The position numbers and the translations under genes were made by a program. The notes under the pieces are model-generated. The model was not told where the DNA came from. It ran no database searches and saw only the letters and a program-made list of their open reading frames with translations. Positions 14,101 through 63,604 of a stretch of DNA of 64,000 nucleotides are shown here, in pieces. How positions within the stretch are numbered: the first letter of the stretch is position 1; every line of letters begins with the position of its first letter. The DNA is from Branchiostoma lanceolatum (lineage: Eukaryota; Chordata; Leptocardii; Amphioxiformes; Branchiostomatidae): NCBI RefSeq assembly GCF_035083965.1, contig NC_089729.1, forward strand, positions 15,736,964 through 15,800,963, written 5' to 3'.

Positions 14101-17100
14101 AGAAATAAAATTCCAAGTCCAAAATCAAGATCGCTACCTATGTATTACATTTTACATTTTTGATAAATGTCAATATCAGGAACATAAATGTTGCTACTCA
14201 AGGGCTTTTCCACAATTGTTCCAGGTATGGCGTCCTGTCCCGACTGTTGGGGGATGGGGTTCTCAGGAGTCAGAAGCTGAAGTACATCCTCACTCACAAG
14301 TGTCTCTTCATCAGGCACTATGAACAGGTGCTATATAATGTTCTTTGTACTTATATCAATCAACCAATATATAAGCACCCTCTTGCTGAACACACCAGCA
14401 TTGCAGGTTCATGCATACCCAAACTAATGCTTGTTTAGCAGAATCTGTGATAATGTAACTTGATGCTCTGGTGTCTGATGCCACACTTCAAGTCCAAGAT
14501 TCTGAACAAAACTTGTTATGTTACATCTTTTGTGACAGGATCTTGTGGTGCAGAATATTATGGGCTACCTGGCAGACACCCCAACCAGAAGACCTCTCCT
14601 TATTCAGGTATGAAAGAAGGACCGAGAACTCAGATTTTTTATAGATTATGTGAGTTAGGCATAGATCAATAAATATGGCTTCGTAGACTGTTTACAGTAA
14701 GTGATATAGATGCTATGATTCCAAACTACCCCTATCAAAATTACATACACACCATATTCCTGCCTCAGTAAGACATTCGTTTAGAATAACTGTTTCTGTT
14801 CATCTTGTTGTAAATGTTTATCAAAACCTTTAGCAAATTCTTTCTCCACAGACATTACTGAGACTGTTGGAAGTCTGGAGTGACTCCAGTGCCATCAAAC
14901 ACACCTCCTATGACCAGCATGCCTACCTGTCTAAAGCCATCCTGGCTGGCCTTGCACATCTAAACAGCAAAGAGAAACAGGAAAATAAGCAAGGTACATG
15001 TAAACGATATCTAAAACTGTCATATTTCACAGTAGTATGATAAGAGTTGTAATGAGATTTCAGCTTCTTAGTCAGTTTGAATAACCAACCAAAATGTTGG
15101 CCAACCAAGCAAGAGTTGACATATTTTCATCTTTGTATATCTCCATTTTCTCAGATATTGTGTTTTTTTCTTGCAGACTTGATCAGAAGACTACTGGAGG
15201 GAGTTCAACATCACATAGACAGTCCTGTCATTAAGGTATGAAGCACATATATCAGTAGTAGACAAATTTGGCTCATAAGATTGTATCAAATGAAGTTGGT
15301 ATTGAAAATGCTTTTCTAATTTCAGTTTTATATCCACATTTTCCTGTAGATCCGTCGTCTCGGCATGGTTGTGGCTGAAAGTGTGACAAAGACGGTGGAT
15401 CCTGATGGACAGAAACTCAAGTTTGAGGTATTATTTTTCAGCCTGATAAATATTATTGTTTCCAGTGACACTGTCTCTTGAAAGCTGTATGTACTATTTT
15501 TATTCCATGGTCCGACAATTGGCGAAGCACAATTTCATTTCCTTTAATTTTCAGTATGAGGAAGACGAGGAAACTGCAAGACTACTTTCTCTCCTCACAC
15601 CGCCCTCCGACCCCGGAGATGAACTTGAAGTAGAGATGGAAACAGAAGAAGTCTTGATGAAGAAAACCTCACTACCACAGAGGGAGGATACTACCAAAAT
15701 CTCTTCAGGTTGTCAGGAAGGGAAGATGACATCACCACAAAGCAAGGAGGGTTCTGAGTCTGAGTTAGACAGGTACATGTGTAACCAATCACATTTGCTG
15801 TAGCTCAAATGGTTCCTCTTGATTGGTTGACAGATATGATTGAATTCTGTCCCTTGATTGACTGACACTGACAGGTGCTTGTGCTTTCTTGCTCCAAACT
15901 CTACTTGAAAAACAGATGTCATTTCTTTGCAGTGATGATGACCTTGAACCATATGACATGCCAGAAGATGTCAAGAAGTCCAAGGTCAAGCAGCCTGTCT
16001 ATATCAGAGACTGTCTTGATGGTGAGGATCTTGTACTGTGCTTAGGTTCTACTATTGGTGAAAATTCCTGCTTTCTACACAGCTTAAGAAATGATACAAC
16101 TTGATGATGTAGAAAGCGATTTCTTTTTGGCAATACAAATCTGTGAATTGCTAATTTTTCTATGTGTTCTGTCATTTCTTTGATGCATAAACATGTACTA
16201 CTATGATAACATTGAATCCACGGATAGAACAAGAAATGTAGTGTGAAAATAGATGCTTCGCAGAAGAGATATCCCACATTTTATTGGGAATTGATTTTAT
16301 TAACTTTTTCTCATGACAGGTCTGATTGCCAATGAGGATGCAGACAGAATGGAGGCCTGTCTGGGAGTGTGTGAACAACTAGTGAGAAGACATCCAGACA
16401 ACTTAGATGAAGTAAGAACCGGCCAAAGTCAAGACTTATCAGTAATGCAGACTTATGGATATATAGTGGCAAGGACTACATTTGTCATGTAAACATGTTA
16501 GGTACATGGTGAATGTAGATATGATTTGTGAATTTTGATTCATTTGATTCTGCTGATTTTTTTATAGTACAAATTGTATCAAAGAGATTTATCTTGCCCA
16601 TATTGTGCTTTGTGTTCTAATTATTCAAAAATGTGTTCTTTTCACAGGTCTGTGTGGAACTGGTGAAAATTCTGCTGCATCTGCAGAACAATTTTGCCAT
16701 CCCAGAATTCACCAGACTCAGAAGAGGCAGCATGTTGGCCACAGCAGTCTTCTGTCCTCTGCAGGTAGGGTGTAGAATAAACTATACAATGCCAATTAAC
16801 AGCTTTATCAAATTATAGAATTTTTAAATGATGTAAACTGTAGCTTTCTTACATATTTTGCCTGACCCTTCCCTCATGATCTCAATGAAAAGTGGCCTGA
16901 AAAATAAAGAAGGGTTTTAAAAAAGATTCAGCGATAAGAATGCAAGTCAAAGCAAGGAATTTCTCTCAAAAAAATCAAGAAAGAACTGTCTATCTGGAAA
17001 GAATCACTTATGATTTCATGTTTTGTGTCATGTATATTGATGGTACTGTTATTTGTACTTTTGTCTTGCAGTATTTAGTAGTCTGTACTTAACTGTATTT

Positions 17101-20100
17101 TGATCTGCAATCTGAAAGAAAAAATGTATTTCAGATGGAGATGTGTGTATCTGTGTCTATCAGCCAACATTGTGTTGTTTCCTCTGTTTCAGGTTTCTCA
17201 GTATCTGACTTCTGAGTTCTATGCACCAAACTACACTATAATGCAGAGGCTGGACATGTTGGAGGTACATCATTTTTTCAATAAACAAAGAAGAGACTGC
17301 GAAGCAATAAATCATTCAATGAATGTCATTGTTTTTCCGTCATTTATTTCTTGCATTTCACAATTTTCGTTCATTCACATGAATCATGATCAGATAAGAA
17401 GGAAAATTAATTTCTGCTTGCTACACCCCCCTCAGGTTTTAGTTGGAGCAGCCCAGGAACTTTCCCAGCCAATCAAACAGAAGAAGGACACAAGACCAGA
17501 ACCTCTGGTACAACTCCTCCCTACCCCTGATGAGCAGACCAGGGAACCCCAACACTGGAGGGATGTAGTGCAGAGGAGGATAGAGAAGAAGACAAGGAGA
17601 TTTGCAAAGGTAGCTGTCTAATATTATCTTAACCTTCTCCCTGCGGCCTAACTCTGTAACCAATAGACAATGTGGTGCCAAACGGCTACTTCAGTGTGAT
17701 AAAGGTTAAGCTCCTCTCACACATATCTGACCATGGCCTCCCAACCTTCTCCAGACCATGGTTGGAAGTTAGTCACGAACAAGGTCATCTGTGGTTGGGA
17801 GTTGGTTGGCAAGGTTACCCACTAGTATTTTAGTTATTAGTGCCAGTCATTAGTGCCAGCCGACTGTAAATCTTTAAAAATCCAAAGTAAGGAAAGTCAT
17901 ATTCTTCTTGAAATTCAAATTCCATTAGAGGTGCAAACTAATGATCAATCTTTCAAATCTGTAGAAGTTTGTCTAGTAGAACCAGCTGGAGATTTCATGC
18001 ATTTTCTTTATTCTGTTGCAAAAAAATACCAGCTATGTATGGCTGTGAATACATGTATGACCAAAGAAATATGCATATTAGCTCTGAATTATTGTGCATG
18101 ACATAGCCTTAAGATGATCAACATTGTGTGTTTTAGGGAGCCAGCAAACCAGATCCAACCCCAGTACCCAACAAGTTTCACACTGTAGCTGGGCACTTCT
18201 TCTTCCCACTTCTCAAGAACTATGACAGGTAAGAAAATCCTGACTCTATTTCTTAGATGTATATTCCGCTCAATAACAGGGATTACATTATGATATGTAA
18301 TGTTAGTTAAAAGATGAAAGGTTACCTAAATCATTGACTTAAAAAAGTTTTTGAAAAGTGACATTCCTTATCCTTTCCTTAGTAACGTTAGATACTGGTA
18401 TATCATTTGCCATAACCAAGAGCGACAGCTGTCTTTTCTGCTAGTAGTATATGAAGCTCTTGTGATTTATTTATTTTTGTGGACTGACTTTGACAATCAT
18501 GTAAAGTTATTTTGTGACTGTTTTCACATGTACACCAGTCGTCAGAACACCCTGGACATGTTAGGAGAGGATTCGCTGGTACTGGGCAGGCTGGTGTACT
18601 CACTAGGGGCAATACTGTACGCTGCTGCAAATACTATGGTATAATCCACAATTCTTGATGTTTTGCATCTACTGATTAGTCTTTAAAGTTCCTGTTTTCC
18701 AGTTGTTTTTGTTTTTTTAAGTATTTGTATCTTAAGTACTAGGATATGCCACTCTATAGTTTAAGTTTAGAATTCCACTTTTCCCATAATGTTTTGACAA
18801 GTACTAAATATTTTCAATATAAAAGGATTTAAGTAAAATGTGTTAAACATATAATTGACAAGTATGATGTAACGTTACAGTTATAAAGAGTAGTGATAAT
18901 AACTTTTTGAAACTTTTATCCTGCAGTAATTCTTGTAGAATTTCTGCTGGAAAAATGTAAATTCCTGCATGACGCACCCATACGGCCCAATTTAACAATA
19001 CAGACAATACAGTAATGAATTTTTTTTTTTTCACAACAGGTTGCAAGACAAATGGCCAAGTCTCTACTAGAGTTTGTCTGGGTGCTACGTTTCCACACAG
19101 AACCGTACGTTCCTACCCTGGTTATGATTTTTCACTCTTTCAACTTTGGCTCTTGTAATAAGGAAACTATATCTGCATGCCAGTGTGGGTTGTTCCCGAC
19201 CTGTTGCCGTGGATATGCCACACCCTCTTAATTACTGTAATTCTTGATTTGTCAACGGTGACTTGATTTTAGCTACTTTAACAGTCACTAGTAAATTGCT
19301 AAAATTTCATTATGGCAAATACTTGATTAGTGATATTTTAGACAGCAATGTTTTTTCCTGCTGTTAAAATTAAATACAGTGAACTCCTTTTCCCCCAAAC
19401 ACTGAAATTACCAACCACATTGTCAAATGGCTTAACAGTAGTACACATAGACTTCATTTCATATTTGGAAGACTTCAGATCTGATTGTACAATGTACTAG
19501 TAAGAGTGGGAGAGAAATTTATGAAATGACTGCTTTACTGTCTGACTTATGATGTTGTTTTTTGTCCAGGTATGTGAGGCAATCTTTATTGTTTGCCGTT
19601 TCCATGGTGATCCTGAGTGTCCCTGCCCATGTCCTGACCTCTGACCTCCAGGAGGAGATTTTTGAAGGACAGCAATGGCTACAAGGTGAGATAGATGTTT
19701 AAGATGCTAAACATAAGTTACATTTTCTTTGAAATTCACCACCATATCAATCATTCTTCGCAAAGATGAAATATTCTTTTCATGCCCTCGCATACTGTTG
19801 TTCTCAAGAATACATATTCATCTGATTGTAAATCTAAATGTTCCATTTTTTTCTTATCAAGATGTGTTGGAGAAAGATACTGATGCAGAATGCCAGAAAC
19901 TTGCAGTGCAAACCCTGATGTTGCTGCAGAACACACTCCAACAGGTAGGGGGCAGTACTGTTATTCCAATTGATGCAAATGTATGTATCATTAGCCTCCC
20001 CTTTTGCACTACTCTTGGTGCATGTATAAGAAGTATGCCATATATTTTTATGGGAAAAATTTGTGGGGTCCAAAATACTATTAGGTTTCAGGGTACATGT

Positions 20101-24400: not shown

Positions 24401-27241
24401 TTCGTGTTCCCTGATCTGAGCCTTGATGTAGTCAACAGGGAAGTCGATTGCCTTGATCAGCTGGGAGGGAGATACGTGTCATGAAAAAGGGCGTCAGTGA
24501 AGGTTAGACTAGCCTGGGTGCCATCCTATTTCTACCGGGCTCCTATGTAGGAGCCCCGGTAGAAATAGGATGGCACCAAGGCTAGGTTAGACATGCAGGT
24601 AATAAGATTCGTAAGAATGCAGTTGCTGGAGGAACTGGATAGATTTCAGAAATGGTAAGAATATATTTAGTTGACCGTTTCCAAAGTCTATGCAGTTGCT
24701 TGGGTGGTTGTTTTCTTGCTAATGGGAAGGGTAGGGGTTGGTTTTATCAAAAACCTCATTGGTTTTATGTAGTGTGTTACGATGTGGATCACACTAAAAC
24801 GCAAATAAGTCATTAATCTTACATAAGAAAGCAAGAATAGACATCATTGTTGTCTTTTCAACACCGATCTATTCTATTTTGATGGCCTTTTTATTAAAGA
24901 AGTAAGTTAATATTGAAATTTCTGTCCGTTTTATATGTGTTGGTCTGATGCCAATCATTGTTTGGGGTGCGAGGGACAAGATATAACAAAGCACAGCTAA
25001 TGTACCATTTTGCCAAAGCAAAGAAAACATATGACTTGTCTTACCGTGTCCGCGCTGTTCAGGACATGCCTAAGAAAAGGAAAGATGTTCTCAGGCATGT
25101 TGATGAAGTCGGTTCCAGAAATGGTGTTGAAGTCTTCCATGAGCCGTAAGAAATGAGGGCTGTCGTACTCTAAGCGGTGTGATAAGACCAGGGAGCAAAT
25201 GACATTAGTAGTCGCCTTCTGTGCCATCCTGGTTATGTTGAACGGTTTGCCGCCCATGTTGCGGATCTCTTCGCGCAAGGCTGCCGACTCCTCCAAGATC
25301 CTGGCCTCCAGACTTCGCTTCCCAAAGCCGAAACTCCTCAGAGTTATACCAAGGCAAACTTTCTCTGCTCCTTCCAATGGGGACCGGAGGGGATCATAGC
25401 TATACCTGTAGTTGGGAAATAGAAAACAGGGGAGGTTTCAAATAAGACCCGGTCACTAGCACAAAGCGATGTGACCATGGCCTCCCGACCCCTACCAACC
25501 TTTGCTCCTTCCAAAGTGGAGCAAAGGGGATCATAGCTTTAACTGTCATTTGGAAATAGAAAACAGGGAAGGTTTTGAATAAGCCCTGATCACACAAAGC
25601 GATGTGACCATGGCCTCCCGACCTCTACCGACCTTTCCTAGCTAGACCATGGTGTGGGCTGAACTACAATGTAGTCGTTAGCAAGCAAGGTCATCTGTGT
25701 TTGGGAGTTGGTCGGTGAGTTTTCCTACCAGTCTTTAAGCATAGTCTGGGTCAGCCGTATATGAATTTCTGTAGGAAGTACATGTAGTCGGCAGTGTCAT
25801 CTTCTGCTTGGATGCTTTCATAGGAACGAACTGTTGTGAGCATAGGATGGATTCCAGGCTACTCCTGACCCAGCGCCGACCTTGGTTGGGGAGTGGTCGG
25901 GAGCACAGTCGTTGGAAGGTTTTGAAATTCAATGTGTGACAGGAGGAGTTTATCTGTTCTTAGCTCTATTGTGACGTAGTTTTCTACGAAGGGAAATACG
26001 AATAAGTCGTACCTTTGTTATTTGTAATTTTGGTTACAACCGCTAGGTGGACAGGTCTGCTGGAGAATACCTCAGCCTGCTTCACCAAGGCTTGATAGAT
26101 GACATCATAACCTCCGAGCACCACGGCATCCTGCAGCCAAATAAAAGCATAGATTTTTCTTCGTGATAATGCCACAAATCTGCCATTGTAGATATGGTCC
26201 AACATAACTGGCTAATATCTAAATATTTCTAATACATTAGTCCTTAATGGAAGCCATACATATGAACTTGCTATCTGTCGCAAACGAAATCCCAATCTAG
26301 GTCAACAAGACAAAAACAACACGCGTTACACAATGTTGTTTCTTATCATTGCCACGCCCTCACAATTAGAATCAACATCTTTAACAAGGTAGGCAATAAA
26401 AACTATTTCCATGGCGGCGATTCAATTGACCTGGGCCTGGCAGTCTACAATTAGGACATGGACCACTATGGGTTATCTAGGTGGTGACTACGCATGCGTG
26501 GATCATTCCCGTAAATTCGTGGAGTTTCTGGGATATTTGTCAAATAGTCACATAATATACTGTTTGGCGCGTTCCTGAAACGCTGCCAAAAACTGTGTAT
26601 CCGTTTCAACTTCTGACTTACCAGCATTCCAATACGGAAGTAGGTGACAGGTCCGTATTCCTTCTGCCATTCCAGGAATTTCAGGTGGAGGTCGTCGGTC
26701 TACAAAAAGGCAAAAACATCACAGCAAAGTTTTCTTGTAGCATTTCGTTGAAAATCTATATTACTCTACATGTTACTAGCGCACATGGTATAATCATGCT
26801 AATAATATTGCTTGTTGCGGGTTTAAACCTTAGGGTAGGTTTCTTAATTGAAGGTAGGTTTGCATATGTATGTGCATTTGTAAGTCTAGGCACAGGGCCT
26901 ACTACTTTGCTGTGTTGGTGCATTTGTGTCCAAGCTTACACGTTTGTTATCCAATTTTCTAACTTAACGGTGCCGATGGATTACTCATTCCATATTTGTC
27001 TTCGTGGTTTTCATTTTCTAAAGCGCTGTACCAAAACGGCTTGGAAATGACATGTGTTCGGTACCTTAGCTATACTGGGCAGGCTGCCAATAACGGGCCA
27101 ACAAAGCGGCCCGGGTGGTAGATTCTTGGGCCGTCTGAAGTACAAGTACGCGAGGAGACTGGCAAACAGGAGAACCAAGCTGGCGCGGCTATCCAGCAGT
27201 TCCAACATATAGTGGACAGCCGACATCTTTCCTTTGTCCAT
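21464..27241 (-). CDS. Cytochrome P450, CYP2-like, with 2-bp frameshift in exon 4
   Basis: Exons (transcript order): 27065-27241, 26622-26699, 26013-26130, 25045-25405, 24194-24460, 23328-23494, 22469-22626 and 21464-21645. Phases match throughout except for one lesion; with it discounted the product is 501 aa, normal for microsomal P450s. Seen: an N-terminal membrane anchor then the proline-rich LPPGPLCWPVIG, I-helix FIGGTEST, K-helix ExxR (EVFR), FDPTRF, and the heme signature FSAGPRVCLG with the ligand Cys446 split across exons 7/8. The family binds heme in the ER membrane and performs monooxygenation with NADPH-P450 reductase; substrate unknown. In exon 4 the frame reads KFALV and then hits TAA. 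Removing the extra TA at about 25355-25358 restores TLRSFGFGKRSLE, as expected for CYP2 proteins. It is either a recent null allele/pseudogene or a sequence error. Confidence 0.88.
21976..22419. mobile_element. TIR element rich in GTACCGG/GGTACA motifs, TA target duplication
   Basis: Ends GTGCTGCGTACC and GGTACGCAGCAC are perfect inverted repeats flanked by TA (21974-21975, 22420-22421). The 444-bp interior carries palindromic GTACCGGTAC clusters near each end and no ORF. It lies in the intron between P450 exons 7 and 8. Confidence 0.75.
23655..23868. repeat. Minisatellite, ~21-bp unit (CCACCTGTAGCGTCCGTACCC)
   Basis: About ten imperfect copies of a 20-22 bp unit centred on GTAGCGTCCGTACCCC lie in the intron between P450 exons 5 and 6. 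The array is open in several frames, but only because of its repeat structure. Confidence 0.9.
24509..24592. repeat. Short perfect foldback in P450 intron 4
   Basis: CTAGCCTGGGTGCCATCCTA...ACCGGGCTCC pairs with GGAGCCCCGGTAGAAATAGG...AAGGCTAG around a 4-6 nt loop. The ~38-bp arms differ by only one or two bases. It is either a tiny MITE relic or a cruciform-prone palindrome. Confidence 0.8.
25364..25630. repeat. Tandem duplication covering the start of P450 exon 4
   Basis: Two ~135-bp units (25364-25498 and 25499-25630) share CTGCTCCTTCCAA, GGATCATAGCT, GGAAATAGAAAACAGG and GCGATGTGACCATGGCCTCC. The first unit contains the real exon 4 acceptor and its first ~45 coding bases. The second, lying upstream in transcript terms, keeps a decayed acceptor and an AMIPFAPLWKEQR-like stretch, then loses the frame. 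The units also include part of dispersed family B. Confidence 0.8.
25590..25740. repeat. Dispersed repeat family B, copy in P450 intron 3
   Basis: TGACCATGGCCTCCCGACC, AGACCATGG, AAGGTCATCTGTG and TTGGGAGTTGGTCGG occur in the same order as in TELO2 intron 16 (17715-17832). Confidence 0.6.
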
Positions 27242-29519: not shown

Positions 29520-32500
29520 ATGGCGGACCCTAGACGGGACATGTACGACGCCCTCACACAACTCCGCCAGCACATCGGCAGCGAGCAACTCGTCCTGTTT
29601 GTCGGCGAACAACTGTCAGTACTCCCGCCGCCCGCTAGGGTGAATCACTGGTGGGAAATACAGGTGGTTATGTTTTACCAACATTTTATTTGATACCTCC
29701 GTGGAAAAGAATGTATCGTTTTCGGTCAGTTTGTCTTGATGTGTGTTCAAGTTTGTTCCCTGGATGAGTTGTAACAGAGACTGGCAGGATGTAATTTGGA
29801 ACCATGTTTTCTTTAGAATGGCATAAGTGGTCTCGCCCAGCTCGAGTCTGAGTTCATGGCCAACCTTCCTCAACGACCGGCCAAAGTACACAATGTACTG
29901 CGCACTCTGGGAACGTTCCCTCTCATCCTCACAACCAATCAGGACGAACTTCTGGAGAGGCTGCTCTGGGGACGAGGGAGTCTGGGCTCTGCTTTGGGAG
30001 AGAAAATCCGCCTTGACCAGGTGATATTTACCAGTTGGGATGAATGAATGAAGATAATGATAATGATGATGAATGCTCAGTATTATGTAAGTATTTCATA
30101 TGACTTAACAAGGTGAAAAACAAAAACTACAAGGTGGAAACTTTATTGTTCCAGGTAGGGCAGGTGATGGAGGACTGGCCTGCCCTCCACCGACACCTGA
30201 TTGTGAAGTTGTACGGCGACACCAGCTACACTGCCCGCTGCAGCGTACGTCTTTGTCCGTTCAGTTAGATCTTTCAATCTTTATCAATTTGAATCAACAT
30301 AGCAGAAATACATTATACTATACATGTACTCCTGAACTGCACTAATCTTACAAATCAGATATATGCAAGCACGAAAACAAAAACTGGACATCACAAAAAC
30401 ACTATACAGTGTATATTTAACGATCATTTTAGTATCCTTCCAATGGTACTACGTCTTTTATGGCAAATACCGGTTCGTAAATCCGGAGACCATGGATTGA
30501 TAAGGCCGTAAGATAAATCGATTTAGTGCTGAACGGCCGTGAACTAACTGTGTACTAGTCTGAGCCGTACGTGAAATCCACACCCTCCTGAAAGCAGAGC
30601 CCCTATCGCTCGATTCGTTAGCTCGCTCGCGTAGGGGCCCTGCTCTTTAGCCCCGGTAGACACGGTTCTGGCGACGTCGCCACCAAAACAGCTTCAGCCA
30701 ATCAGAGGGTTTGCTAAACCTCATCTAGAGCAAAAGCGCAAAGGACGCTGGGAAGCTATCAACCAATCAGGTTACGTCTCACATCGTTACTTTAGGTTCA
30801 AAACAAATTTACCACCAAATTGTGCCAAATAAGGATAGCTCATTAATTAGTCATGAGCAACTGTCAGTAACGTCGCCAGAACCGTGTCTACCGTGGCTAA
30901 AGAGCAGGGCCCCTACGCGAGCGAGCTAACGAATCGAGCGATAGGGGCTCTGCTTTCAGGAGGGTGGAAATCCACGGCTGTGGACGGACTGACACTAGTC
31001 TGAATTCATCACCAAACTTGATGAATCCCACGGCCGTGGAACTCACCTATCAACGGTCTCAAATGGCTCAGCAAGTTGAAAGATATGTACAAACCGTTAA
31101 GGTGCTCCAGTACGATAATTTTGGAGAAAATGTGTTGTTTGAAGGTGACACACTTTTACCATCTTTAACATAACTACAACAGGCAGAATCTCGGAAATTC
31201 CTTGAAGAAGGCATCTTGTGTGGTGAACCTTACCATGAGAACGCAGCTGTGGAGTTTCTTGACAAGGTGTTCAAGGAACGGTCGGTCCTCTTCCTGGGTT
31301 GCGATTTACAGCACAACATCTACAAGCGACTCCTGGCGAGATTCGTCACAAATGCTCCGGTATGAATCATCTTTGGTTTCAGTACCACATCAATTGAGAA
31401 GATTCGTTTCAGTGATAACGTTATACTTGGCACAACGCACACAAAGTGTACATGTTTTATGCAGTCTACCATATGGTAGTAGGAAATAATCATTTGGGCC
31501 CCATGTTTAGCTAGATAACAGTTTTAACATCAGTGATGTGACTGTCAGTATCAAATCAGTACTGTACAGTGTATATGATTTTAGTACTGCAGGTCTGCTA
31601 TTAAAAACAAGGGTTGTTGTTGAAGAGAGTGTTCGCAATCGGATGACCGAAAACGTATTGCGATTGATACATTTTTGTGGTATAAACAGAACCATCCAGC
31701 TAAGTAAACGTGTGTCCATGCTACTATCCAAAGGAACACGAAGTAACAGTGGTGCACATATACTAGTTGTATTAGGGTCTATTCACTGAGAACACGCCCC
31801 CCACCTTGTCAGGTTGACCACTACACGTTTGAGTCGTCTGAAAGCCGCAGTTTTTCCCGCCATGGCAGCCTGGTGACTCTCAAGGCGAACCTGGAACTCT
31901 GGGAGTTTGTGCAGTACCTCAGCACGGGGAGGATGGAGGAGAATATACACCCCGGGCAGGTGGGAAAAAATAGGGACAGTTAGAGAAAGCATTTTTTGGT
32001 AGATTCCTTTCACATTATTTTATCAATATCCTGTTAAATCATTATATCATTTATATCTGACTACGAACAAATTGTAGGAGCAGGATCTTACTCCTTCTCA
32101 ATACCTTTTATGAATTATGAATTATGTGCGGATGCCACATATTGTTTGCAACGAATTTGACCTTTGCTAAGCCATTATTAAGTCCTATCTTCTCACACAA
32201 GTGTATAAGAAGTCCTATCTTGTCACACATACGTATGAGAAGTCCTATCTTGCTACTCAGGTGTATGAGATGTCCTATTGTCACACAGGTGTAAGAGGAG
32301 TCCTATATATTGTCACACAGGTGTATGAGAAGTCCTATCTTGTCACACAGGTGTATGAGAAGTCCTATCTTGTCACACCGGTGTATGAGAAGTCCTATCT
32401 TGTCACACAAGTGTATGAGAAGTCCTTTCTTGTCACAAGAGTGTATGAGAAGTCCTATCTTGTCACACAGGTGTATCTTAAGTCCTATGTTGTCATACAG

Positions 32501-35500
32501 GTGCATGAGAAGTCCTATCTTGTCACACAGTTGTATCTAAAGACCTATCTTGTGACACAGGTGTATGAAAAGTCCTATCTCGGTACTCAGCGAGAAGAGT
32601 ACCTTCTCCAGCAGCTTGCCCTGGAGAAGCAGGCCTCGGAGATCGTCTTCCACACGTCCAGCATCACCAACGCCCTGGCTACGGACGACGCCTTGGAGTT
32701 CATCTCTAAACCGGCATTACAGGACATCTACAGCAGCGACCCCTTTGGTAAGGGATAGACCTACGTTCATCTACCCTGGGAAACCAGACACCGTATATCG
32801 GCGCGCCACCAAGCACCGCACGCGCGCCCAAGCTTCCCCCCCCCCCCGCTGCCCCCGAAGACCGACCCCGCCCCAGTCTCCGCTGTAAACCCAAGCTCCG
32901 CTAGCCGAATACGTGGAGCTTGGGTTTACAGCGGACAGTGGGGCGGGGTCGGTCTTCGGGGGCAGCGGGAGGGTGGGCCGAGAAAGCTTGGGCGCGCGTG
33001 CGGTGCTTGGTGGCGCGCCCATATACGGTGTCTGGTCTCCCAGGGTAACGGTCATCTAGCTCTATGATCATTCAAAGCAGGAAAACAAGATACTATTTGG
33101 AGATGATAATATCCAGTAACACTGTATTAGATACCCTGAGTTCTCCGTCTGCTACAAATGTTTTAATTTCATATCTTTCATTTTGAACCCATCAGGCGTA
33201 TTCACAGACGAGCACGTGACTAGGTCCCTGGACGCAATGAAAGCTAGACGGGACAACCTTATCAAGGTAAATTATCCTTTTCATGTAAATACATGAAATA
33301 TGCAGGATTCAGGAACATAGTTGATTCTATCAAATGTTAGATCGCATGTCTGGTTAAGATTTCAAAGCTATATGTATTGGGAACGCTGATAAGCTAGGAA
33401 TTACGATCAGTTGGAAACTAGAATGTTTATTAAGCTGATCGTCGTTTGATAGAAATTCAAGAACGACAAAAAATGCTGTGGTTGAAATTTCTTTACTGAT
33501 CTACTGTAACAATAGATTCACAGATTTGTCGAAAAGTAACCATTTGCCAACATCATTACAGAAAATCCACGAAGGAACCAAGGTTGTGACGCTGTTCTTC
33601 TACCACGGACTGAAGGCTGAGCTTGACCCGAACAAAGTCACGGACCCCAAGAAGCGGCAGATGGCCATCAAGAAGTACGTGGAGGTCATCAAACTGTGCC
33701 AGACCTTCGTCACCAGCAAGAGCTCGCTGGAGATCCGCATCGTGGACTGGACGGATCCAGAAGAGCGCAAAGAGATCGACAAGGAGAAGTTTGGGTTGGC
33801 CAGACTTAAAGGTACGTCAACGTCAAATATAGGCAAAGTTTAACAAGTCTTGTTCTAACAAATACAAGGAGTTACTGACTCCTGGCGTCACGTGAGATAG
33901 GTGAGTGGGTCAGTATTCCTTAAGAAGGCCAAAGTGTTCACAAGATCGGCGAGTTGGATAGTTGAAATTTTGGTCAAGACATGTAACCTACAAATAGGAT
34001 TCCCCTAAGGACATATATTCGTTTTGCTAAAACATTAAGAACGCTGTAGAAAGAATCGTGCGAAGACACAGTGATTGTCAAAGAGTCTCCACCTACAATT
34101 TTGTTTATGTGTAGGAGGCGAAGACGAAGCTATTTTTCACGGCCATCCGGCGACAGCTGGCAAGAAGGCTTTCGCCGTGCAGCTGATCGCCATCAACGGA
34201 GAGGAGACTGCGCGGAAGAGGAAGATTTACGAGAAGTCTCGCGAGAGGTCGTGGAGTCCCGAGGATTCCGTGAGACGGCTGCTGCAGGAGGTGCTCAGGG
34301 CTAATGGGGAGCTGGTGGACAAGCACGGGGAACACATGTCAGCTATCAAGGTATGGGTGTTAACTGTTAAAAATTATTATTACAGATATTGTTATCACCT
34401 ATCGGATTGTTGGTTTGTTTGTCTTGTTGTGTGTAAACGTTTTTCCCGCTGGCCCGGGTCCAAGGTGGCAGGCGGATATGAGGCGGAAAATGGTGTAACT
34501 GGAGACCTGCAGGATGGAAGGCTGATTTTGCCCGGGTCCAAAGTTGGTGCCGTAAGCTTGGTCCGGCTCAATTGTCTCACAAGAAGGCAGGAAATTCACA
34601 AAATTATCGAGAAATTCACAATAATGAACAATACGAGATATTCGCAAAAAGGTATGCGATAACCGATATTTCTTTTTCTCGTTTGCCGTTTGGAGCAATG
34701 TAAAGTGTGTATACATGTGAATCATGATGTTTCTTTTGAGATAAAAATGTTGAAGTTTTTCGTGCCTATGTTATTTCCTTCATCAGAAAGGGGACCTGGA
34801 GATGTTACAGAACATGAGTGAGATACACCTACTGACCAACAAGAAGCTGGACCAAGGAAGCAACTTCATCAAGGTGTGCCTTGTAAAATTTCACCTCCGT
34901 CACTAATTGTAATACGATAGTGTTTGTGTTTGTACATATAGTATGATGATTATTGTATCAAGTAAACATTATTTTATTACAGATCGGCAGCGGCAGTTTT
35001 AGCACGGTGCACAAGGCCACACGGCAGGGGCGAACGGTAGCGGTCAAGATTCTCAATGAAGTCCAAAGCACAAGAGAGCTGAAGGCCTTCCAAGATGAAT
35101 TCAAGCTTCTAAGGTACGTTGGAAGTTATGACCTAAACATTCTGTAACGTTTTCGCGGCAGGCAGATGTATGGCAGTATGTCACCCTAAAGGGGCGAAAT
35201 GTACCACCAAAGATGGCATACCTATATTGCAGTATAGGCTAATAAGTAGGGAGCACCACCTGGAGCCTCGTTTTTGTGCATGACCCAAAGCTGACCGCGG
35301 GAAATTCAAAATGGCAAGAGGTCTATTGTCGTGATTCAAATACACTACGCTCTCTGTTATTATTACCTTTTCTAGGAATGTGAAATTTACACCAAGACTC
35401 GGCAGCAACTTTGACCACTTCTTGACGTTGTTTAACATTCTATATCTCCGTTGTACCCAAATAGAGATATGAAGCACCCCAACGTCGTCCAAGTTGAAGA

Positions 35501-38500
35501 TTGCATCGTTCAGGACAACAGACTAGGTATCATCATGGAGTTCATGGCAGGAGGAAACCTTCGTGATCATCTCAGGAAGTCCGGAGCTCAGGAGAAGGAC
35601 TTCGTACTACGGTTCGCTGAACAGATCGGTCAGGCACTGGAGTACCTGCACCTAAAGGACGTCATGCACAGGGACGTCAAGCCGGAGAACGTCTTTGTAA
35701 GTCTTTCCAAAATGTGCCGAACGTATTCATGTGCTTTAACTAAGAGTGGCTCATAGTCTTTCTGCGATAGATGTACCTTTAAGACCTTAACAATAGGCAA
35801 ATGGTGGGACAATATCGTACAATGGTAATTGTGTCTTCTTCGTCCTGATTTAAGACACTATGATTAATAATGTGAATTGTTATTACAAAATGTACACGGA
35901 TGTTAGATTTCAGAGGACCACAGCATCTTCAAACTGGGCGACTTCGGTCTCGCCAGAGTGACCGAGGGCACACGGCAAACCAAGACTCTCATTGGGTCCT
36001 ACCGCTACATGGCTCCGGAAGTGATGTCATCGCGCGGCCACTACTCCAAGAAAGCAGACGTTTACAGTTACGGTACGCCAAGATGGTTTGCTTCTTTGTT
36101 ATTCGTAACTAATGTTTAGGTCACAACTGGAAAAGGGGGCCCTGCCGGGCAGTTCACGGGCTGTTTTGTTTTGCACTTTCTGGCGTAACCCCTACTTGGC
36201 CCCGTGGCCGGTGGCACCCTGTGACTATCGGGCTATTTTTGGCCATACCGGGGCCCTGGAAGTTTTTAAAACGGAGTTTAAAAAATCAACGCGGGGACCG
36301 GTAAGAAATAGGCGCCGTGAGTTACTCGCGAGAACACCGAGAGGTATCCGGCAGCCCACAGGGACACATTTTTGCCATCGGGCCCGGCCGGGACTGCACT
36401 CCTACGGGCTCCGGTGCAAATGTGACCGTAGCATTAGTTGGTGAAGGGAAACCTTTGAAAATTGTATCAACAATTGGCACCAAGTAGTTGAAGTAGCCAT
36501 TAGGGAATCCTTTTTTCTAAAAGCGCTGCTTCATTTTGCAGCTTTATGCTTGATCGAGCTCATTGGTGGAGAGATGGTCTTCAGCAACATCGCCAAACAC
36601 AAGGATGCGATGGACGAGAAGCTACGTGGTGGACTACCAGACATTCCGGTAGTAGTTTGCTGCGTTCTAACATTAACTGAAGAATGTTGATAGCACTAAT
36701 TATACGAATGTGAAAGTAACCATATTCGTTAGGTCATCAAATCTAATTGCCAGTACTTTAAAAGTCAACTGAGACATATTTCCATAGCATGTAGTATTGC
36801 AAACTTAAGATGTTCTGTATGATGTTTCTTTATGTATTTACTGGAATTTTTTTAATGAAAATAATCGTTAGGTCGCCAGATCTACGCATATTAAACACCG
36901 TATAGACACCGCTTATTTCGCCTAAATCGAGTTCATCATATAACTCACTTTGCTATTGAAAATCGAAACTTCGTTTTTCTCTCACTCAAACCAAGTCTAA
37001 GTGGTCGACATTTGATCGATCAATTTCTTGCACAACTGAACACCACAATGTATCAATCAATCAAAGTTTATTGCACAACAAATGTAACGGGTACAATGTA
37101 TGGCAAGTTCGTAAGTAGTACAAATATATGATAGTCCAATTTTTCCCTCTAAGAAAAACTGCGATGAGTATGGACCGAGGATGAAGCCAACCATTGAACG
37201 ATGTCTGAAAGCAGAAGCGCAACGACCCACTATGGCTAAGGTAAAATTTACCAACAATGGCATTGTCAATCTGAGTTCTAATTTTGTCGTCTCAATATCG
37301 CATGTCCGCAAAGTAGATTCAGCGCTTAATAGTCAAATCCTTTTCCAACCAGGTGTTGCAGATGCTGTTTGGTGCCGCACCTGTGAAGACTGACACTGGA
37401 CACCTGGAGCTTCTTTGCCTAGGCACAGGAGATGCCGCAACTGGTAAGTCTTTGAAACTATCTGTCGAAAACTTCTTACGTGATATGTCTTCCATACATT
37501 GCTTAACAGACCACAGTAGAAAAGGTCACTCATAGTCTGCACATAAACCTTACGATGCTGTTTTTTTACTTAATTTTTTTTCTTCATTTTCTATGTTTCA
37601 GCCGCATTTGAGGGAAACCCTAGTTCTTCGGCGATGGTCATGTTCAACGGTTCTCCGGTTATTCTGATAAATGCCGGACTGGGAGTTCTCCGTTCATGCC
37701 AGGAGCTTGCAGGTGGGATTGTTTTATCAATATGTCTCTATTATCTGATAATCACATCATATCATATAGGAACTCATATCATACTTCATTCTAACACATT
37801 ATGAAAGACAACCCAGTTATCTTCAACTTATGTAAATTATGCCAATGAACAGATACTGCTAAAGCTCCCGTCACAAATAAGAAATTCAGCTCGGAGAGCT
37901 TCAAATGTGCATTTTCGGCCGAAGTACGGCCGACGTCCTGTCGATTACGCGGGCTTCGGGCGATTTTTAGAAATCAAGGTTGATCCAAATATTGGCCTTT
38001 TACCAGGTTAGTCGATTCTGACATCGTCCATGTCCAAGAGATGGTACCATCTCATGAGGATTTTTAGTTTTTAGTGTTCGACGGAAGTCGCCCGAGATTT
38101 TCATTGGAAAATACGGTCGCAACGCTCGGGCGATTTTGAACTTCGGCGAGCTCGGGCGATTTAGAAATTCGGCCGACGCTCGCACGAATTGTGACGCCGG
38201 CTTAACCGACTGAATGAATAGTACATGACAAATATGACACTGAAAACCTAATATCTTCTACAGGGCAGCTGCCAGATCTGGTCTTCGTATCCTCGCGCCA
38301 TTCTGACCACGCCGCTGAGCTGTCAACACTGGTGACTCGAAAGCTTCTTCGGCGAGGAAAACAACAAGGAAAGGATACTAACCTGACGATCATCTGCCAG
38401 GACAACGCCCAAACTGCCCTGCAGCGGCGATGCGAGGACGACTATATAGTCGATACGGTATACACACCTTCCTTTCACAAAGTCATCTTTATGATCATCG

Positions 38501-39841
38501 TTATCATTTGAACTATCATCAATGAACAGCCGACTGCATAATAACCTGTGAATGAGTAGTTTTCTTTATTTTCCAGGGAGAACGGGTCACGTGGATTTCC
38601 TGTGAACCAGACAAAATGTACAAGGTCAACACTTTAGCGGGAAGACTGGGGGTTCAAATGTTTCCAAGTTCATCCAAGACGACAGGTTAGTACCTTAACG
38701 TTCCAACTAACAGCGCATGCCACACATTCTTTATACAATACACCGAAAAGGACACATTATTAGTCAAATGTCGTATTTTTATGATAAAGATTGTACTACT
38801 GGTACATGGTGCTATGATTAGGACGCAGCAAAGGCAGTGTCTTATAGCTTACTACACTCATGATACTGGCACATAATTTCTAACTTCGTTGTAGCTTGTA
38901 GGGATCAACTTTAACATTTTATTTTATACTTGCCAAAGGTTTTGTACTTTGCAACAATGAACACCCCGTACTGCGCTACCTGGTGTACAAGGGAACAGAA
39001 CAAGGTGGTACTTATGACACGGACCGTGACGTGGTGACCGTAGTGGAGGCAGACAACGCATTGACTGACATTGGACAGGTGAGTTCAACTGAAATACCGA
39101 TGCAAGTATTTGTCTTCCATATGCGCTCCAACCAAATTCAAATTCCCTATTTTTCAGTCAGAATAATTAATGTACAATGTTTTTCAAAAAGCCTTTGTCA
39201 CTAAAAGCATTACCAATATTCCCGGGTCGGCCGCCCGTATAGATATCTAATAGTGACTCTCGAAGCAGCTTAGCTCACTGAAGAGCTTTTCTTTCGCTGG
39301 TCGTGACATAAAAAGACTGTATTTATAGGTTCATTGTGCGGGGAAATTCCCTTGACAGCCTTTTTTCGACAAGCACAATGAACGATGGTCCAGAGTCAGG
39401 GGCACTAACCACTGGACTACGCACGCTGCCCAATGAGTGACCACTGTTTCATCTGTCGTGTAGGTGACCATGGGCGATAAAGTGTACATGATAGGACCCT
39501 GTGCAAAGACAGAGAAGGTGGAAGAACAAGCACCAAACCTCCGCTTCCTCGAGCGTGGTGAAACCGTGTCGCTATCGGCCTCCACTGCTGATCGTGGCAG
39601 CGTCACTATCGGCAGTGATCTTGCACCAATCGCAGAGAACGACTCAAGCGACATTGAACAATATCCCAAGGTCGTTACGGTCGTTGGAGAGTGCCCAGCG
39701 GAGGGATATGGTCCAGAGGAAAGTGGCACTACCGGGAATCTGCTCACCACGACTGGGTCAGAAGAAAAGAGCTGCACGGACAACCACGAAGACCTAACTG
39801 ACGATGTGTACCCGAGTGTCCGAGACGCCGTATCATCCTAA
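29520..39841 (+). CDS. SIR2-like / protein kinase / metallo-beta-lactamase-like fusion protein (complete, 21 exons)
   Basis: Exons: 29520-29663, 29817-30020, 30155-30244, 31183-31359, 31813-31959, 32591-32747, 33196-33266, 33562-33811, 34115-34350, 34787-34873, 34983-35113, 35465-35696, 35907-36072, 36542-36648, 37154-37240, 37353-37443, 37602-37712, 38264-38457, 38577-38685, 38939-39078 and 39464-39841; 3309 nt, 1102 aa, all phases consistent. Residues 1-255 resemble SIR2-like (FAM118-type) domains: LVLFVG, ILTTNQD (87-91), KLYGD (134-138), VLFLGC (181-186). Residues 307-521 match nothing I know. Kinase 522-762: GSGSFSTV loop, VAVK (K543), alphaC E560, HRDVKPEN (633-640), DFG (D654), APE, so probably active Ser/Thr kinase. 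Residues about 780-980 resemble the RNase Z-type MBL fold: LGTGD, LINAGLG, SSRHSDH. The acidic tail has no membrane segment. Divergent from the P450. Function unknown. Confidence 0.88.
30581..30966. mobile_element. hAT-like MITE in SIR2-kinase intron 3
   Basis: Nearly perfect ~100-bp terminal inverted repeats start CACCCTCCTGAAAGCAGAGC and end in the reverse complement. An 8-bp direct repeat GAAATCCA flanks the element (30573-30580 and 30967-30974). The 8-bp target duplication and ends beginning with CA are characteristic of hAT-mobilised non-autonomous elements. The interior (~190 bp) has no ORF. Confidence 0.85.
32180..32590 (+). repeat. 30-bp minisatellite abutting exon 6 of the SIR2-kinase gene
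   Basis: About 13 copies of a 30-bp unit (GTGTATGAGAAGTCCTATCT followed by TGTCACACAG), open as YEKSYLVTQV repeats in the same frame as exon 6. The last unit (AAGTCCTATCTCGGTACTCAG) supplies the exon's 3' splice site. Every unit contains CAG followed by GTGTAT, resembling both an acceptor and a donor. I treat it as intronic because exons 5 and 6 join in phase without it. Confidence 0.85.
32774..33045. mobile_element. Long GC-rich foldback element in SIR2-kinase intron 6
   Basis: Two ~125-bp arms (CCCTGGGAAACCAGACACCG ... CTGTAAACCCAAGCTCC and its reverse complement) are almost perfect, around a ~15-nt loop near 32900-32914. TA flanks both ends (32772-32773, 33046-33047). There is no ORF of its own. 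The DNA could extrude as a cruciform, and the transcript would form a very stable hairpin. Confidence 0.85.
36130..36437. repeat. Dispersed repeat family A, copy 2 (SIR2-kinase intron 13)
   Basis: Collinear with 2146-2435 from GGGGCCCTGCCGGGCAGTTC to ATGTGACCGTAGCATTA. It contains an extra ~40-bp GC-rich block (TTTGCCATCGGGCCCGGCCG and following) missing from copy 1. Confidence 0.75.
37855..38205. repeat. Probable degenerate inverted-repeat element in SIR2-kinase intron 17
   Basis: Ends TAAAGCTCCCGTCACAAAT and ATTGTGACGCCGGCTTA are imperfect inverted repeats. The interior repeats GGGCGATTTT and CGGCCGAC motifs on both strands. It fits an old MITE, but the boundaries are uncertain. Confidence 0.4.
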
Positions 39842-60419: not shown

Positions 60420-62633
60420 TCATACCCTGGTTATTTCCAGTGATTCCAGGTTGAGTCCTTCTGGGTGAAGTGTTCGGAGCTGATGTATCCAGTAGGATTC
60501 TCTGCTGAGTCGTCGTTGTCGTGTGAGGTCTTCGGTCCTGCCGTATGCCAGCTTCTCGAGTCCGACGACCTCCATGTCCGCGACGGTGTGGCTCGGTTGG
60601 TTGAAGTGGGCTGCGATGGGTGTATCCTTGTCCGTCTTGATGGAAGATCGGTGCCCGTTCATCCTGTTGGCCAATGTTTGTCCTGTTTCGCCGACGTATT
60701 GTATGCCGCATTTCTTGCACTGTATCATGTATATGATATTCCTGGTGCGGCATGTGATGTGGGCCCTGATGGTGTAGCGTCTCGAAGTGCGATGGCTTTG
60801 GAAATCCTTGCTCTTCCTGACGTATGTGCAGGTGAGGCACTTTCTTCCGCACGGGTATGATCCCGGAGGGATGTTTTTCGTGATGAAATTCTTGTTCTCC
60901 CTCGGGATCTGGGCCCTCACCAGTGTATCCCTCAGATTTTTGTTGCGGCGGTAGGCGATGAGTGGTGGATCTTGGAAGAGTTCTCGTGTTCTGGGTGATA
61001 GTTGTAGAATGTTCCAGTACTTTCTGAGAATGTTGTTGATGGGTGGTAGATGTGGGTTGTAGGTGGTGACTAGGACTGGTCTGTCTTGCGAGGCAACCTT
61101 TTTCTTTTTGGCTCCTAGGAGTTCCTCTCTTGGGCGGTCTTGGGCGCGTTGTGCAGCTTGATCCAGGAGGGCGTCTTCATAGCCTCGATTCTGGAAATGT
61201 TCTTTTAGCTGCTGTGCTCGTTCCCTGTATTTGGGTTCGTCTGAGCAGATTCTACGAACGCGTAAGAATTGTCCAAAAGGTATACCCCGTTTGCAGTGGG
61301 TGGGGTGGGAAGGGTTCCTTAGAAGATATTGGTGCTTATCTGTGGGTTTTGTGTAGAGATCCGTGGTGAAAGCTCCCTCCGAAACGCTGATGGTGACGTC
61401 CAGGAAGTTGATAGATGTAGTGGAGGTTTCTACCGTGAACTTGATGGTTGGATGTGCTGTGTTGAGGTCTTTTATGAATGACTTGAAGTCTTCTTCCGAG
61501 TGTGTCCAGATGGCGAAAACATCGTCTATGTACCTCCACCAGACTAGTGGTTTGAGGTTCCTCTTGTAGACGTGTTGTTCCTCGAATTTTCCCATGAAGA
61601 TGTTTGCGTATGAAGGCGCCACTCTCGTTCCCATAGCCGTTCCTTGGACTTGGATGTAGTGTCCTCCGTTGAACTCGAAGTTGTTGAGGTTCAGGATCCT
61701 GTCCAGTAGGTCGCAGATGGCTTCGGTGGGAACGTCTGAAGGGTTCTTTTGGAGCGCTTCGCGAGACGCTTGTATACCTTCTTCTGTTGGGATGTTAGTG
61801 TAGAGGGATGACACGTCCAGGGTGACCAGTTTGGCGGTTGGCGAAATCTTCCCGAGTTTGTTGAGTTTCTGTAAGAAGTCCGTAGTGTCCTTGATGTAAG
61901 ATGGTAGTCTTTGCACCAAAGGGCGGAGGTGGTGGTCAGCAAATTCAGAGATCCTTTCTGTTGCACAGTCATTGGCTGAGATGATTGGTCTGCCCGGGTT
62001 ACCTTCCTTGTGGATCTTAGGGAGAAGGTAGAAGACAGGCGTTCTTGGGTGTACGGGCGCAAGATAGTTGAACTCGTCTTCGCTGATAGTTCCTTCGTTA
62101 AGAAGTTTAAAGAGAGTTGTTCTTACCAGCGCGGCGTGTTCCTCCGTGGGGCAGGAGTCGATGTGCTTGTAGTGATCTTTGTTGGAGAGTTGACGTAGTG
62201 CTTCTTGGATGTAGTCTTCTCTTTTCATGATCACTACCGCGGAGCCCTTGTCTGCGGGTTTGATGATGATGTCAGTTCTTCGGCTGAGTTCCGCAAGGGC
62301 TTCGCGTTCTGCACTGCAGATGTTGGTCTTGAACAGTCTTGGTGAAGGTTCCTTGTGTTCTAGGATTTCCTTTTCGACTGCCATGATGAAGGTGTCTAGC
62401 GCCGGATCTCTGTGGGTGGGGGGAGTCCACTTGCTTTTGACCTTGAATTTTTGGGTCTCCATTTTGTCGTGGTCAGCAAATAGTTCCCGCAATCGAAGTC
62501 TTCTGAAGAAGGCGTGGAGGTCTGTGATGAGTTGTTGTCGGTTGAGATCAGTGGGTGAGGGGGAGAAGTTGAGTCCTTTAGAAAGTGCAAGTATGTCAGT
62601 GTCGGTGAGTGGTATGTCCGAGAGGTTTACCAC
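60420..62633 (-). CDS. Penelope-like ORF2: reverse transcriptase with GIY-YIG endonuclease
   Basis: A 737-codon open frame. The RT core is complete, with YLLPKIHKEG, GRPIIS, LDVSSLYTNIP, QGTAMGT and YIDD (368-371). A cysteine-rich linker (CGRKCLTC, about 596-602) precedes the GIY-YIG endonuclease (GIQYVGETGQ, 643-652, then RMNGHRSSI and AAHFN), the hallmark of endonuclease-positive Penelope-like elements. The frame overlaps the end of ORF1 by 7 bases, in the -1 frame relative to ORF1. The first codon of this frame past the overlap is GTG, and the first internal Met is residue 58, so translation probably depends on frameshifting, reinitiation at a non-AUG codon, or the internal Met. No disabling mutation was seen. 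Confidence 0.93.
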   Translation of the reverse strand: MVNLSDIPLTDTDILALSKGLNFSPSPTDLNRQQLITDLHAFFRRLRLRELFADHDKMETQKFKVKSKWTPPTHRDPALDTFIMAVEKEILEHKEPSPRLFKTNICSAEREALAELSRRTDIIIKPADKGSAVVIMKREDYIQEALRQLSNKDHYKHIDSCPTEEHAALVRTTLFKLLNEGTISEDEFNYLAPVHPRTPVFYLLPKIHKEGNPGRPIISANDCATERISEFADHHLRPLVQRLPSYIKDTTDFLQKLNKLGKISPTAKLVTLDVSSLYTNIPTEEGIQASREALQKNPSDVPTEAICDLLDRILNLNNFEFNGGHYIQVQGTAMGTRVAPSYANIFMGKFEEQHVYKRNLKPLVWWRYIDDVFAIWTHSEEDFKSFIKDLNTAHPTIKFTVETSTTSINFLDVTISVSEGAFTTDLYTKPTDKHQYLLRNPSHPTHCKRGIPFGQFLRVRRICSDEPKYRERAQQLKEHFQNRGYEDALLDQAAQRAQDRPREELLGAKKKKVASQDRPVLVTTYNPHLPPINNILRKYWNILQLSPRTRELFQDPPLIAYRRNKNLRDTLVRAQIPRENKNFITKNIPPGSYPCGRKCLTCTYVRKSKDFQSHRTSRRYTIRAHITCRTRNIIYMIQCKKCGIQYVGETGQTLANRMNGHRSSIKTDKDTPIAAHFNQPSHTVADMEVVGLEKLAYGRTEDLTRQRRLSRESYWIHQLRTLHPEGLNLESLEITRV

Positions 62634-63604
62634 TGTTTTCCTTGCTGCTTCGAGGAGTTTGCGGCGGCGTATCTTCCGTATCCTGTCTTTCCTCCTCTTG
62701 CGTTTTTCTTGGATGGCCTTTTGGCGATTAAATCGCCGAGGGCGAGCACGAGCCTTCTTATGGAGCCCCCTCGTGGGTTCCTCCTTGCGTTGGCCTGCTT
62801 GCGTACCTTTTCTGGTGCATTCTGGCGTTTGTCCTTCTTTGCCGATGGGGCGCTTTTGTTGCTTTCGTCGCCTTTGTCGGTGAGGCGCTGCCGTGGCTGC
62901 TCCTTGTTGTCGGACCCCTCCTGTGGAGGGGTACTTCCGTTTTTTGGACGCTTCTTGCTGGGGCCGTTGACGGCGATGTCACGATCTCGCTGGAACTTTT
63001 TCTCCTTGGTCTTGAGGAGGGCGGCTTCCTTTCTCTTCTTGAACGTTTCCACGTTCTTTTCAAGGGTTTCCCGTTCTTCTTGAGGAAGTTCCTCTGTCTT
63101 CCGATTGAGGCCCGCGATTGTGTTGTCCAGGACATCTTCTGCTGATCCGTAGAAGTCGATGATCAGACCCATCAGGGTGCGCGATGTTTCCTTGAGGGTC
63201 TCGTCCCAGCGGCGATCGAACTCTGGGTTCGTCTTACCCAACATGGGTTTCTTCTCGATCACCAGGCCTTTGGGGATCAGGTGCTCATCCAAGTACTTCT
63301 GTAGCGTCTCTCGGTGGAGTTGGTAACGGAGGCTCTTGTCGGTGGCCTTGATCAGGTCCTTTTGTAGAGCGGTGGTGTTCTTCGGGGGAAGGGGGTCTTG
63401 GCGTACAGCGTAGATAAGTACCTTCCGTGCTGGTTCCTGTTCTGGAACGGATGTCTCAGATCCGTTCCGTTGTCTTTTCTTCTCATTCTTCTTCTCTGCT
63501 TGTCTCTCTTCGTCACGTATTCTTGACGTCGAAGTCTCGTGGCTGGATCGCTTGGCTTCTGCCGTGGATACAGCATCCTCCCAAATTGTAAGGGTAGACA
63601 TCAT
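62627..63604 (-). CDS. Penelope-like ORF1: basic Lys/Arg-rich protein
   Basis: 325 codons from ATG 63602-63604. Highly charged, with long Lys/Glu/Arg runs (likely helical, about residues 30-50 and 170-215) and a basic C-terminal third (KKRPKN, KKDKRQN, RPSKKNARGG), consistent with nucleic-acid binding. No zinc knuckle or known domain was recognised. The start codon overlaps the last bases of the upstream pLTR (TCAT at 63601-63604), so the pLTR supplies the initiator ATG. Confidence 0.75.
   Translation of the reverse strand: MMSTLTIWEDAVSTAEAKRSSHETSTSRIRDEERQAEKKNEKKRQRNGSETSVPEQEPARKVLIYAVRQDPLPPKNTTALQKDLIKATDKSLRYQLHRETLQKYLDEHLIPKGLVIEKKPMLGKTNPEFDRRWDETLKETSRTLMGLIIDFYGSAEDVLDNTIAGLNRKTEELPQEERETLEKNVETFKKRKEAALLKTKEKKFQRDRDIAVNGPSKKRPKNGSTPPQEGSDNKEQPRQRLTDKGDESNKSAPSAKKDKRQNAPEKVRKQANARRNPRGGSIRRLVLALGDLIAKRPSKKNARGGKTGYGRYAAANSSKQQGKQW

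Follow-up and report, generated by a model that had tools for sequence, protein, structure and literature searches.

RNase L and IRE1 combine, in this order, a sensor, a kinase and a domain that cleaves phosphodiester bonds. Here we describe a gene in the lancelet Branchiostoma lanceolatum whose predicted product has a comparable layout: a SIR2-like domain of the Pfam family SIR2_2, a phospholipase D (PLD)-like domain, a RAF-like protein kinase and a metallo-beta-lactamase (MBL) domain. The gene lies in a stretch of 64,000 nucleotides (contig NC_089729.1, positions 15,736,964 to 15,800,963; hereafter the window). Relatives of these domains have been described. SIR2_2 proteins include NADases, and activity is abolished by mutating the histidine or the asparagine of FAM118B or FAM118A, members of a clade with at least 41% identity to the human FAM118s, according to the available text of PMC12700824. 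FAM83 provides a precedent for an inactive PLD-like domain that engages kinases, as set out in the consulted part of PMC6008594, and the PDB entry 7t28 is named as Apyc1 of phage Bsp38 in an excerpt of PMC9117128. No description of the order SIR2_2, PLD-like, kinase and MBL was found in the open-licence PubMed Central (PMC) literature searched, bioRxiv excluded, in agreement with an earlier interpretation of the window made from its letters (the sequence-only reading), which knew of no described protein with such an order. The sequences of the family are public without a function, and their architecture appears to be of the multidomain sensor kinase kind.

One gene with four domains, from sponges to lancelets

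Exons were chosen to fit the description in the sequence-only reading and were then checked for splice borders and frame. The reconstruction from window DNA gave 21 exons on the forward strand between 29520 and 39841, with AG/GT at all internal borders and an uninterrupted frame of 1102 codons that ends in a stop at 39841. The exon count and phase of the sequence-only reading thus stood, while its length needed correction: exon 6 starts at 32561 rather than 32591, which is 30 nt earlier and keeps the frame, hence a protein of 1112 codons and amino acids. With this start VYEKSYLGTQ precedes REEYL, and we adopted it because relatives carry VYExSxL-type residues before QREEYL in an alignment of ten proteins. 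Residues 246-1112 of the corrected model match the NCBI B. lanceolatum protein P0003 at 867 of 867 letters. The B. belcheri protein P0001 (1104 aa) aligns to residues 1-1111 at 83% identity, in an alignment made with a model one codon short.

We searched for relatives with protein queries, each search scoring only about 8000 candidates. Residues 1-521 retrieved 19 proteins, all of them carrying a precomputed kinase family and 15 of them SIR2_2. Their sources were B. belcheri, B. lanceolatum, the hemichordate Ptychodera, the corals Acropora, Montipora and Porites, the sponge Corticium, the centipede Strigamia, one JGI contig and one Logan protein; the Strigamia protein (P0017) has a SIR2_2 score of 20.2, below the Pfam cut-off of 24.5. 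The domain order is common to hemichordate, corals, sponge and centipede. It is therefore no peculiarity of lancelets, and Ptychodera supplies the example from other deuterostomes that the sequence-only reading had proposed to seek. Further members occur in the corals Orbicella, Stylophora and Desmophyllum, and partial gene models in the crinoid Antedon (SIR2, PLD and the start of the kinase), in Saccoglossus (SIR2 and part of PLD) and in Glandiceps (PLD, kinase and MBL). In the alignment of ten, seven proteins were complete over all four domains, with 34-46% identity for the non-lancelets; the incomplete ones lack SIR2 (P0003), the first ~80 residues (P0016) or the MBL end (P0015).

A second protein search returned 18 family rows, followed by unrelated kinases, among the best 120 of 167; it missed the query members P0001, P0005, P0015 and P0017, and its recall is thus imperfect. 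No vertebrate, tunicate, insect, mollusc or annelid member was among the family rows of these searches, from which we do not claim absence. Prokaryotic or viral SIR2-PLD relatives were sought with two short peptide patterns, which leave absence unproven: 0 of 65 matches were confirmed in genome_contigs and 0 of 118 in viral_contigs.

Taken together, it is near certain from these alignments that the locus encodes a single protein in which SIR2_2, PLD-like, RAF-like kinase and MBL domains follow one another in this order, and that the order is conserved across animal phyla. The central claim of the sequence-only reading, a fusion within a single gene, is borne out by the single open frame of the 21 exons, the end-to-end match in B. 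belcheri and the same order in other phyla. Annotation of the family is poor: copies are either labelled uncharacterised or given a misleading name (60S ribosomal protein, Nek6 or Fer-like). P0002 of B. belcheri is named 60S acidic ribosomal protein P1, probably a misnaming, and two gene models include extra sequence, part of a microbial-type PARG domain in P0021 (Stylophora) and replication protein A in P0017, probably as annotation fusions.

Active sites kept and lost

Pfam matches place SIR2-like, kinase and MBL-like domains on exons 1-5, 11-15 and 16-20, in the order the sequence-only reading had given. The kinase occupies exons 11-15 (34983-35113, 35465-35696, 35907-36072, 36542-36648 and 37154-37240; residues 532-772 by Pfam and alignment), with the Pkinase match at residues 521-766 (E 4.5e-57). 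The catalytic triad is present in the lancelet (K553 of VAVK, D645 of HRD, D664 of DFG) and complete in 25 of 26 rows. The closest solved kinase structure is B-Raf, and the assignment as a RAF-like kinase is firm. In a tree of 12 family rows and 39 other kinases the family fell on one side of a branch (99/97); the 39 were mostly bacterial and included no RAF, so the tree speaks for the unity of the family, not for its nearest kin. VIA-align matches of the full-length model were filled by kinases, and where relatives matched defence kinases such as MAD6 in PADLOC or NCBIfam, the match was set aside as one of the kinase domain only.

Exons 1-5 (29520-29663, 29817-30020, 30155-30244, 31183-31359 and 31813-31959; residues 1-254) encode the SIR2_2 domain, identified by Pfam and by active-site alignment. 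Pfam SIR2_2 (PF13289) matches residues 84-216 with 39.7 bits against a cut-off of 24.5, an assignment we regard as firm, and a profile of six family members matches FAM118B (E 6e-7) and KomC (E 1.3e-6). Foldseek matches of a structural model of the coral relative P0024 include FAM118B, ThsA, Avs5 and DSR2, though FAM118B and ThsA were not among the 50 VIA-align rows listed for it. The pocket asparagine (N163 in FAM118B) is kept in 21 of 21 rows, as N89 in the lancelet. At the position of the catalytic histidine (H206 in FAM118B, H146 in KomC) the same rows, which are not independent since they include two from B. belcheri and many from corals, have L (11), F (8) or Y (2; Y136 in the lancelet). 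Of the 20 rows with a letter at the Trp65 position, 18 have W, doubtfully so in P0024, in a stretch that aligns to FAM118B at only 2.2 bits; in the other two, P0002 and P0021, the N-terminal part of the gene model is chimeric. The FAM118-specific Asp255 is, by eye, apparently not kept. Orthology with FAM118 was rejected: the single lancelet sequence gave no match to FAM118B at E≤10, and the Foldseek row of P0024 against 9r0p_B has 13% identity, compared with the 41% of the clade. The FAM118-type label of the sequence-only reading therefore holds for membership in SIR2_2, not for FAM118 itself. For the SIR2 and middle parts no specific family emerged from NCBIfam or PADLOC, the LmuA match (E 0.018) being at chance level. 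PDB entry titles include complexes of DSR2 H171A with tube and NAD+, consistent with binding of NAD+ without the histidine.

The middle of the protein, exons 6-10 (32561-32747, 33196-33266, 33562-33811, 34115-34350 and 34787-34873; residues 255-531), consists of a PLD-like domain and a linker. The sequence-only reading had suggested structure prediction and a Foldseek search; carried out on P0024, these gave SIR2-like matches and a PLD-like fold, by Foldseek and VIA-align, for the region it had listed as residues 307-521. The HxKxxxxD (HKD) motif was found in 0 of 26 rows in this region (P0005 and P0130 have HNK without the Asp). FAM83 structures are among the fold matches of the P0024 model, and the Pfam scan gave no match to DUF1669 (FAM83) at E≤10.

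The MBL domain is encoded by exons 16-20 (37353-37443, 37602-37712, 38264-38457, 38577-38685 and 38939-39078; residues 773-987 by Pfam and alignment), and exon 21 (39464-39841) completes the MBL region and adds a C-terminal tail for which disorder is predicted in B. belcheri (P0001 residues 1020-1104). Pfam Lactamase_B_2 matches residues 813-959 with 26.0 bits for the whole protein and 28.7 for the C-terminal piece, around a cut-off of 27, and the lancelet MBL, used alone as a query against PDB sequences, did not retrieve any MBL. Judged by sequence, the assignment is borderline in the lancelet and secure from relatives. The metal ligands HxHxDH, H, D and H are invariant in six chosen, diverse non-lancelet sequences. 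HxHxDH is present in 14 of 24 rows with letters there, that is in 14 of the 20 non-lancelet rows; the remaining six are corals, five without a recognisable MBL and one (P0019) with a degraded one. The five (P0009, P0012, P0014, P0018 and P0025, from corals or coral-like sources) are paralogues with the kinase, and with SIR2 where complete; P0009 and P0012 have another C-terminal family, PF27628. All four lancelet rows, from two species and including P0003, the window's own gene, read SxHxDH. In the window the ligand positions are S850, H852, D854 and H855, followed by S, Y and Q at the later sites, and P0001 retains His at the fourth ligand site.

Which MBL this is was addressed with a profile of the six non-lancelet domains. 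Its best solved structure was Apyc1 of phage Bsp38 (7t28; E 1.6e-8, positions 5-235 of 259), and its match to RNase Z (E 2.1e-7) covered the first 80 positions only. NCBIfam leans the other way for some members: its RNase Z and cyclic-nucleotide phosphodiesterase models each match all six, down to 1.6e-16 and 7.2e-11, all below cut-off. Precomputed annotation on relatives includes PF23023, which we take to be an Apyc1-type MBL family. In tRNase Z proper a long exosite arm separates the fourth His from the Asp. The corresponding spacing is 22 in 13 of 13 rows having both motifs (24 in Apyc1), so the arm is missing; together with the confined RNase Z profile match, this led us to reject tRNase Z proper.

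The MBL diverges faster than the other domains in lancelets. B. lanceolatum and B. belcheri share 70% identity in it and 87-92% in SIR2, PLD and kinase, and the values between lancelet and hemichordate are 30% and 46-50%. Between hemichordate and coral the MBL (44%) is as similar as the other domains (43-47%). Its reading frame is intact in both lancelets, where it may still be under selection as a non-enzyme. Because most non-lancelet members have the full ligand set, the MBL was probably an enzyme first, not a sensor.

A minisatellite at the exon 6 acceptor and other features of the window

A minisatellite with a 30-nt unit in 13.4 copies (32180-32580, +) extends from the last part of intron 5 into exon 6. 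Its copies read VYEKSYLVTQ in frame with exon 6, within an open frame at 32171-32758, and its sequence points to an origin by expansion of the exon 6 splice acceptor. Six of the seven AG|GTG(T/C)A sites within it, candidate 3' splice sites, are in frame (32261, 32321, 32351, 32471, 32501 and 32561). P0003 uses only the last of these, 32561; the other acceptor copies could yield length variants of the protein.

Elsewhere in the gene, intron 3 (~30570-30980) and intron 6 (~32770-33055) hold long inverted repeats that by eye resemble small non-autonomous transposons. An 852-aa open frame at 60423-62978 (-) carries reverse transcriptase and GIY-YIG domains, presumably as in Penelope-like elements. 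The window also contains an exon of an XK-related protein at 608-1351 (-; E 3.3e-37), a cytochrome P450 exon at 25000-25437 (-; E 1.1e-11) and a weak Telomere_reg-2 match at 17082-17618 (+; 20.6 bits against a cut-off of 23.6).

Possible mechanism, alternatives and comparison with known systems

A kinase that is always kept, two N-terminal folds without catalytic residues and a dispensable MBL suggest a ligand-gated kinase with an optional enzyme tail. Our preferred, still tentative reading is that the two non-catalytic domains gate the kinase and that the phosphodiesterase-type tail has been largely inactivated in lancelets. The SIR2 domain would probably bind NAD+ or an ADP-ribose derivative, the obvious candidates for its ligand, without fast hydrolysis, because the pocket asparagine is kept and the catalytic histidine absent. 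The HKD-less PLD-like domain may pair or scaffold chains, ligand binding would juxtapose two kinase domains in the manner of RAF, and the main output would come from the kinase. In most lineages the intact MBL phosphodiesterase might cut a small phosphodiester as a second output or off-switch; in lancelets, with most metal ligands lost, it would be at most structural or regulatory. The sequence-only reading had proposed a kinase gated by two flanking sensor-like domains. The absent SIR2 histidine fits this idea; the PLD-like domain was missed, and the MBL was probably an enzyme first. The immune or stress-signalling role that it suggested is an inference here too, the immune link being drawn by analogy with SIR2_2 proteins (consulted text of PMC12700824).

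Of the alternatives, the logic of RNase L and IRE1 is a less likely one, in which a ligand dimerises the kinase and the kinase switches on RNA or cyclic nucleotide cleavage by the MBL as the real output. The shared order of sensor, kinase and C-terminal phosphodiester-cleaving domain, the ligand sets complete in 14 of 24 rows and the matches of both NCBIfam models speak for it. However, the MBL is degraded in both lancelets and unrecognisable in five coral proteins while the kinase is intact, and it is therefore not the sole output everywhere. Slightly less probable still, and unlikely in our view, is an ordinary RAF/MAP3K-type kinase of development or stress, with the other domains as mere scaffolds, no nucleotide ligand and no immune link. 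B-Raf as nearest solved structure agrees with this, as does the lack of catalytic residues in two of the three extra domains in every row checked; an invariant SIR2 asparagine and MBL ligands invariant in six sequences are more than a pure scaffold needs.

We consider it improbable that the SIR2 domain still consumes NAD through other residues, as an effector regulated by kinase and MBL. Its asparagine is in all rows and its SIR2_2 relatives are NADases, but the catalytic histidine is absent from every row, FAM118A and FAM118B histidine mutants are dead (same text of PMC12700824) and KomC H146N is present as a mutant entry. Least probable by far is an artefact of exon picking that merged adjoining genes. 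What weighs against a single gene is the start of P0003, a Met within exon 5 that leaves this protein without SIR2; therefore no annotated B. lanceolatum protein found here has the SIR2 exons. The case for joining these exons to the others rests on phase, on P0001 and on proteins of other phyla that are continuous in the same way. Nonetheless, full-length proteins of B. belcheri, Ptychodera, coral and Strigamia align through the junctions, and a JGI protein of 939 aa, encoded on a 10-kb contig, spans the stretch from SIR2 into the MBL. We rejected merged neighbours because the domain order is continuous in other phyla.

Returning to the ligand-gated sensor kinase, its order has been kept from sponges to lancelets and is thus very likely useful. 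Folds familiar from bacterial defence and from its evasion are united here in a single animal kinase. Should its SIR2 domain sense NAD+ or ADP-ribose species, kinase signalling in animals would be coupled directly to NAD metabolism. In lancelets, where the MBL has decayed and the kinase is intact, nature offers a test of which part acts as the output. In a fuller, more speculative form, to which we give about the same low credence as to the RNase L-like logic, this would be an animal-old cytosolic receptor made from folds of bacterial antiphage signalling, found from sponges to lancelets: a non-hydrolysing sirtuin domain would read an NAD+ or ADP-ribose messenger and drive a RAF-like kinase, with a built-in cyclic-nucleotide-type phosphodiesterase as brake or second output, turned off in lancelets.

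The likeness to RNase L and IRE1 is one of domain order; their sensor and nuclease folds are different. With Apyc1, YhfI and RNase Z the non-lancelet members share HxHxDH, H, D and H, and Apyc1 matches nearly the whole domain; here the MBL stands behind a kinase, scores below the NCBIfam cut-offs and has degraded ligands in lancelets. FAM83 also has a PLD-like fold (DUF1669) without the catalytic motif, one that binds CK1 kinases (consulted part of PMC6008594), whereas here the kinase is RAF-like and in the same chain, and DUF1669 gives no Pfam match. The SAMD9 family offers another animal multidomain protein with a variant SIR2-like domain, tied to antiviral response; its partners are AlbA, P-loop NTPase, TPR and OB-fold domains, with no kinase or MBL in the architecture given in the excerpted text of PMC5445408. 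FAM118A/B, ThsA, DSR2, KomC and Avs5 are linked to the lancelet-type protein by its SIR2_2 match, the FAM118B and KomC profile matches and the Foldseek matches of the coral model. Unlike FAM118A/B and the bacterial SIR2_2 proteins, it lacks the catalytic histidine and carries its SIR2 domain fused to a PLD-like domain, a kinase and an MBL.

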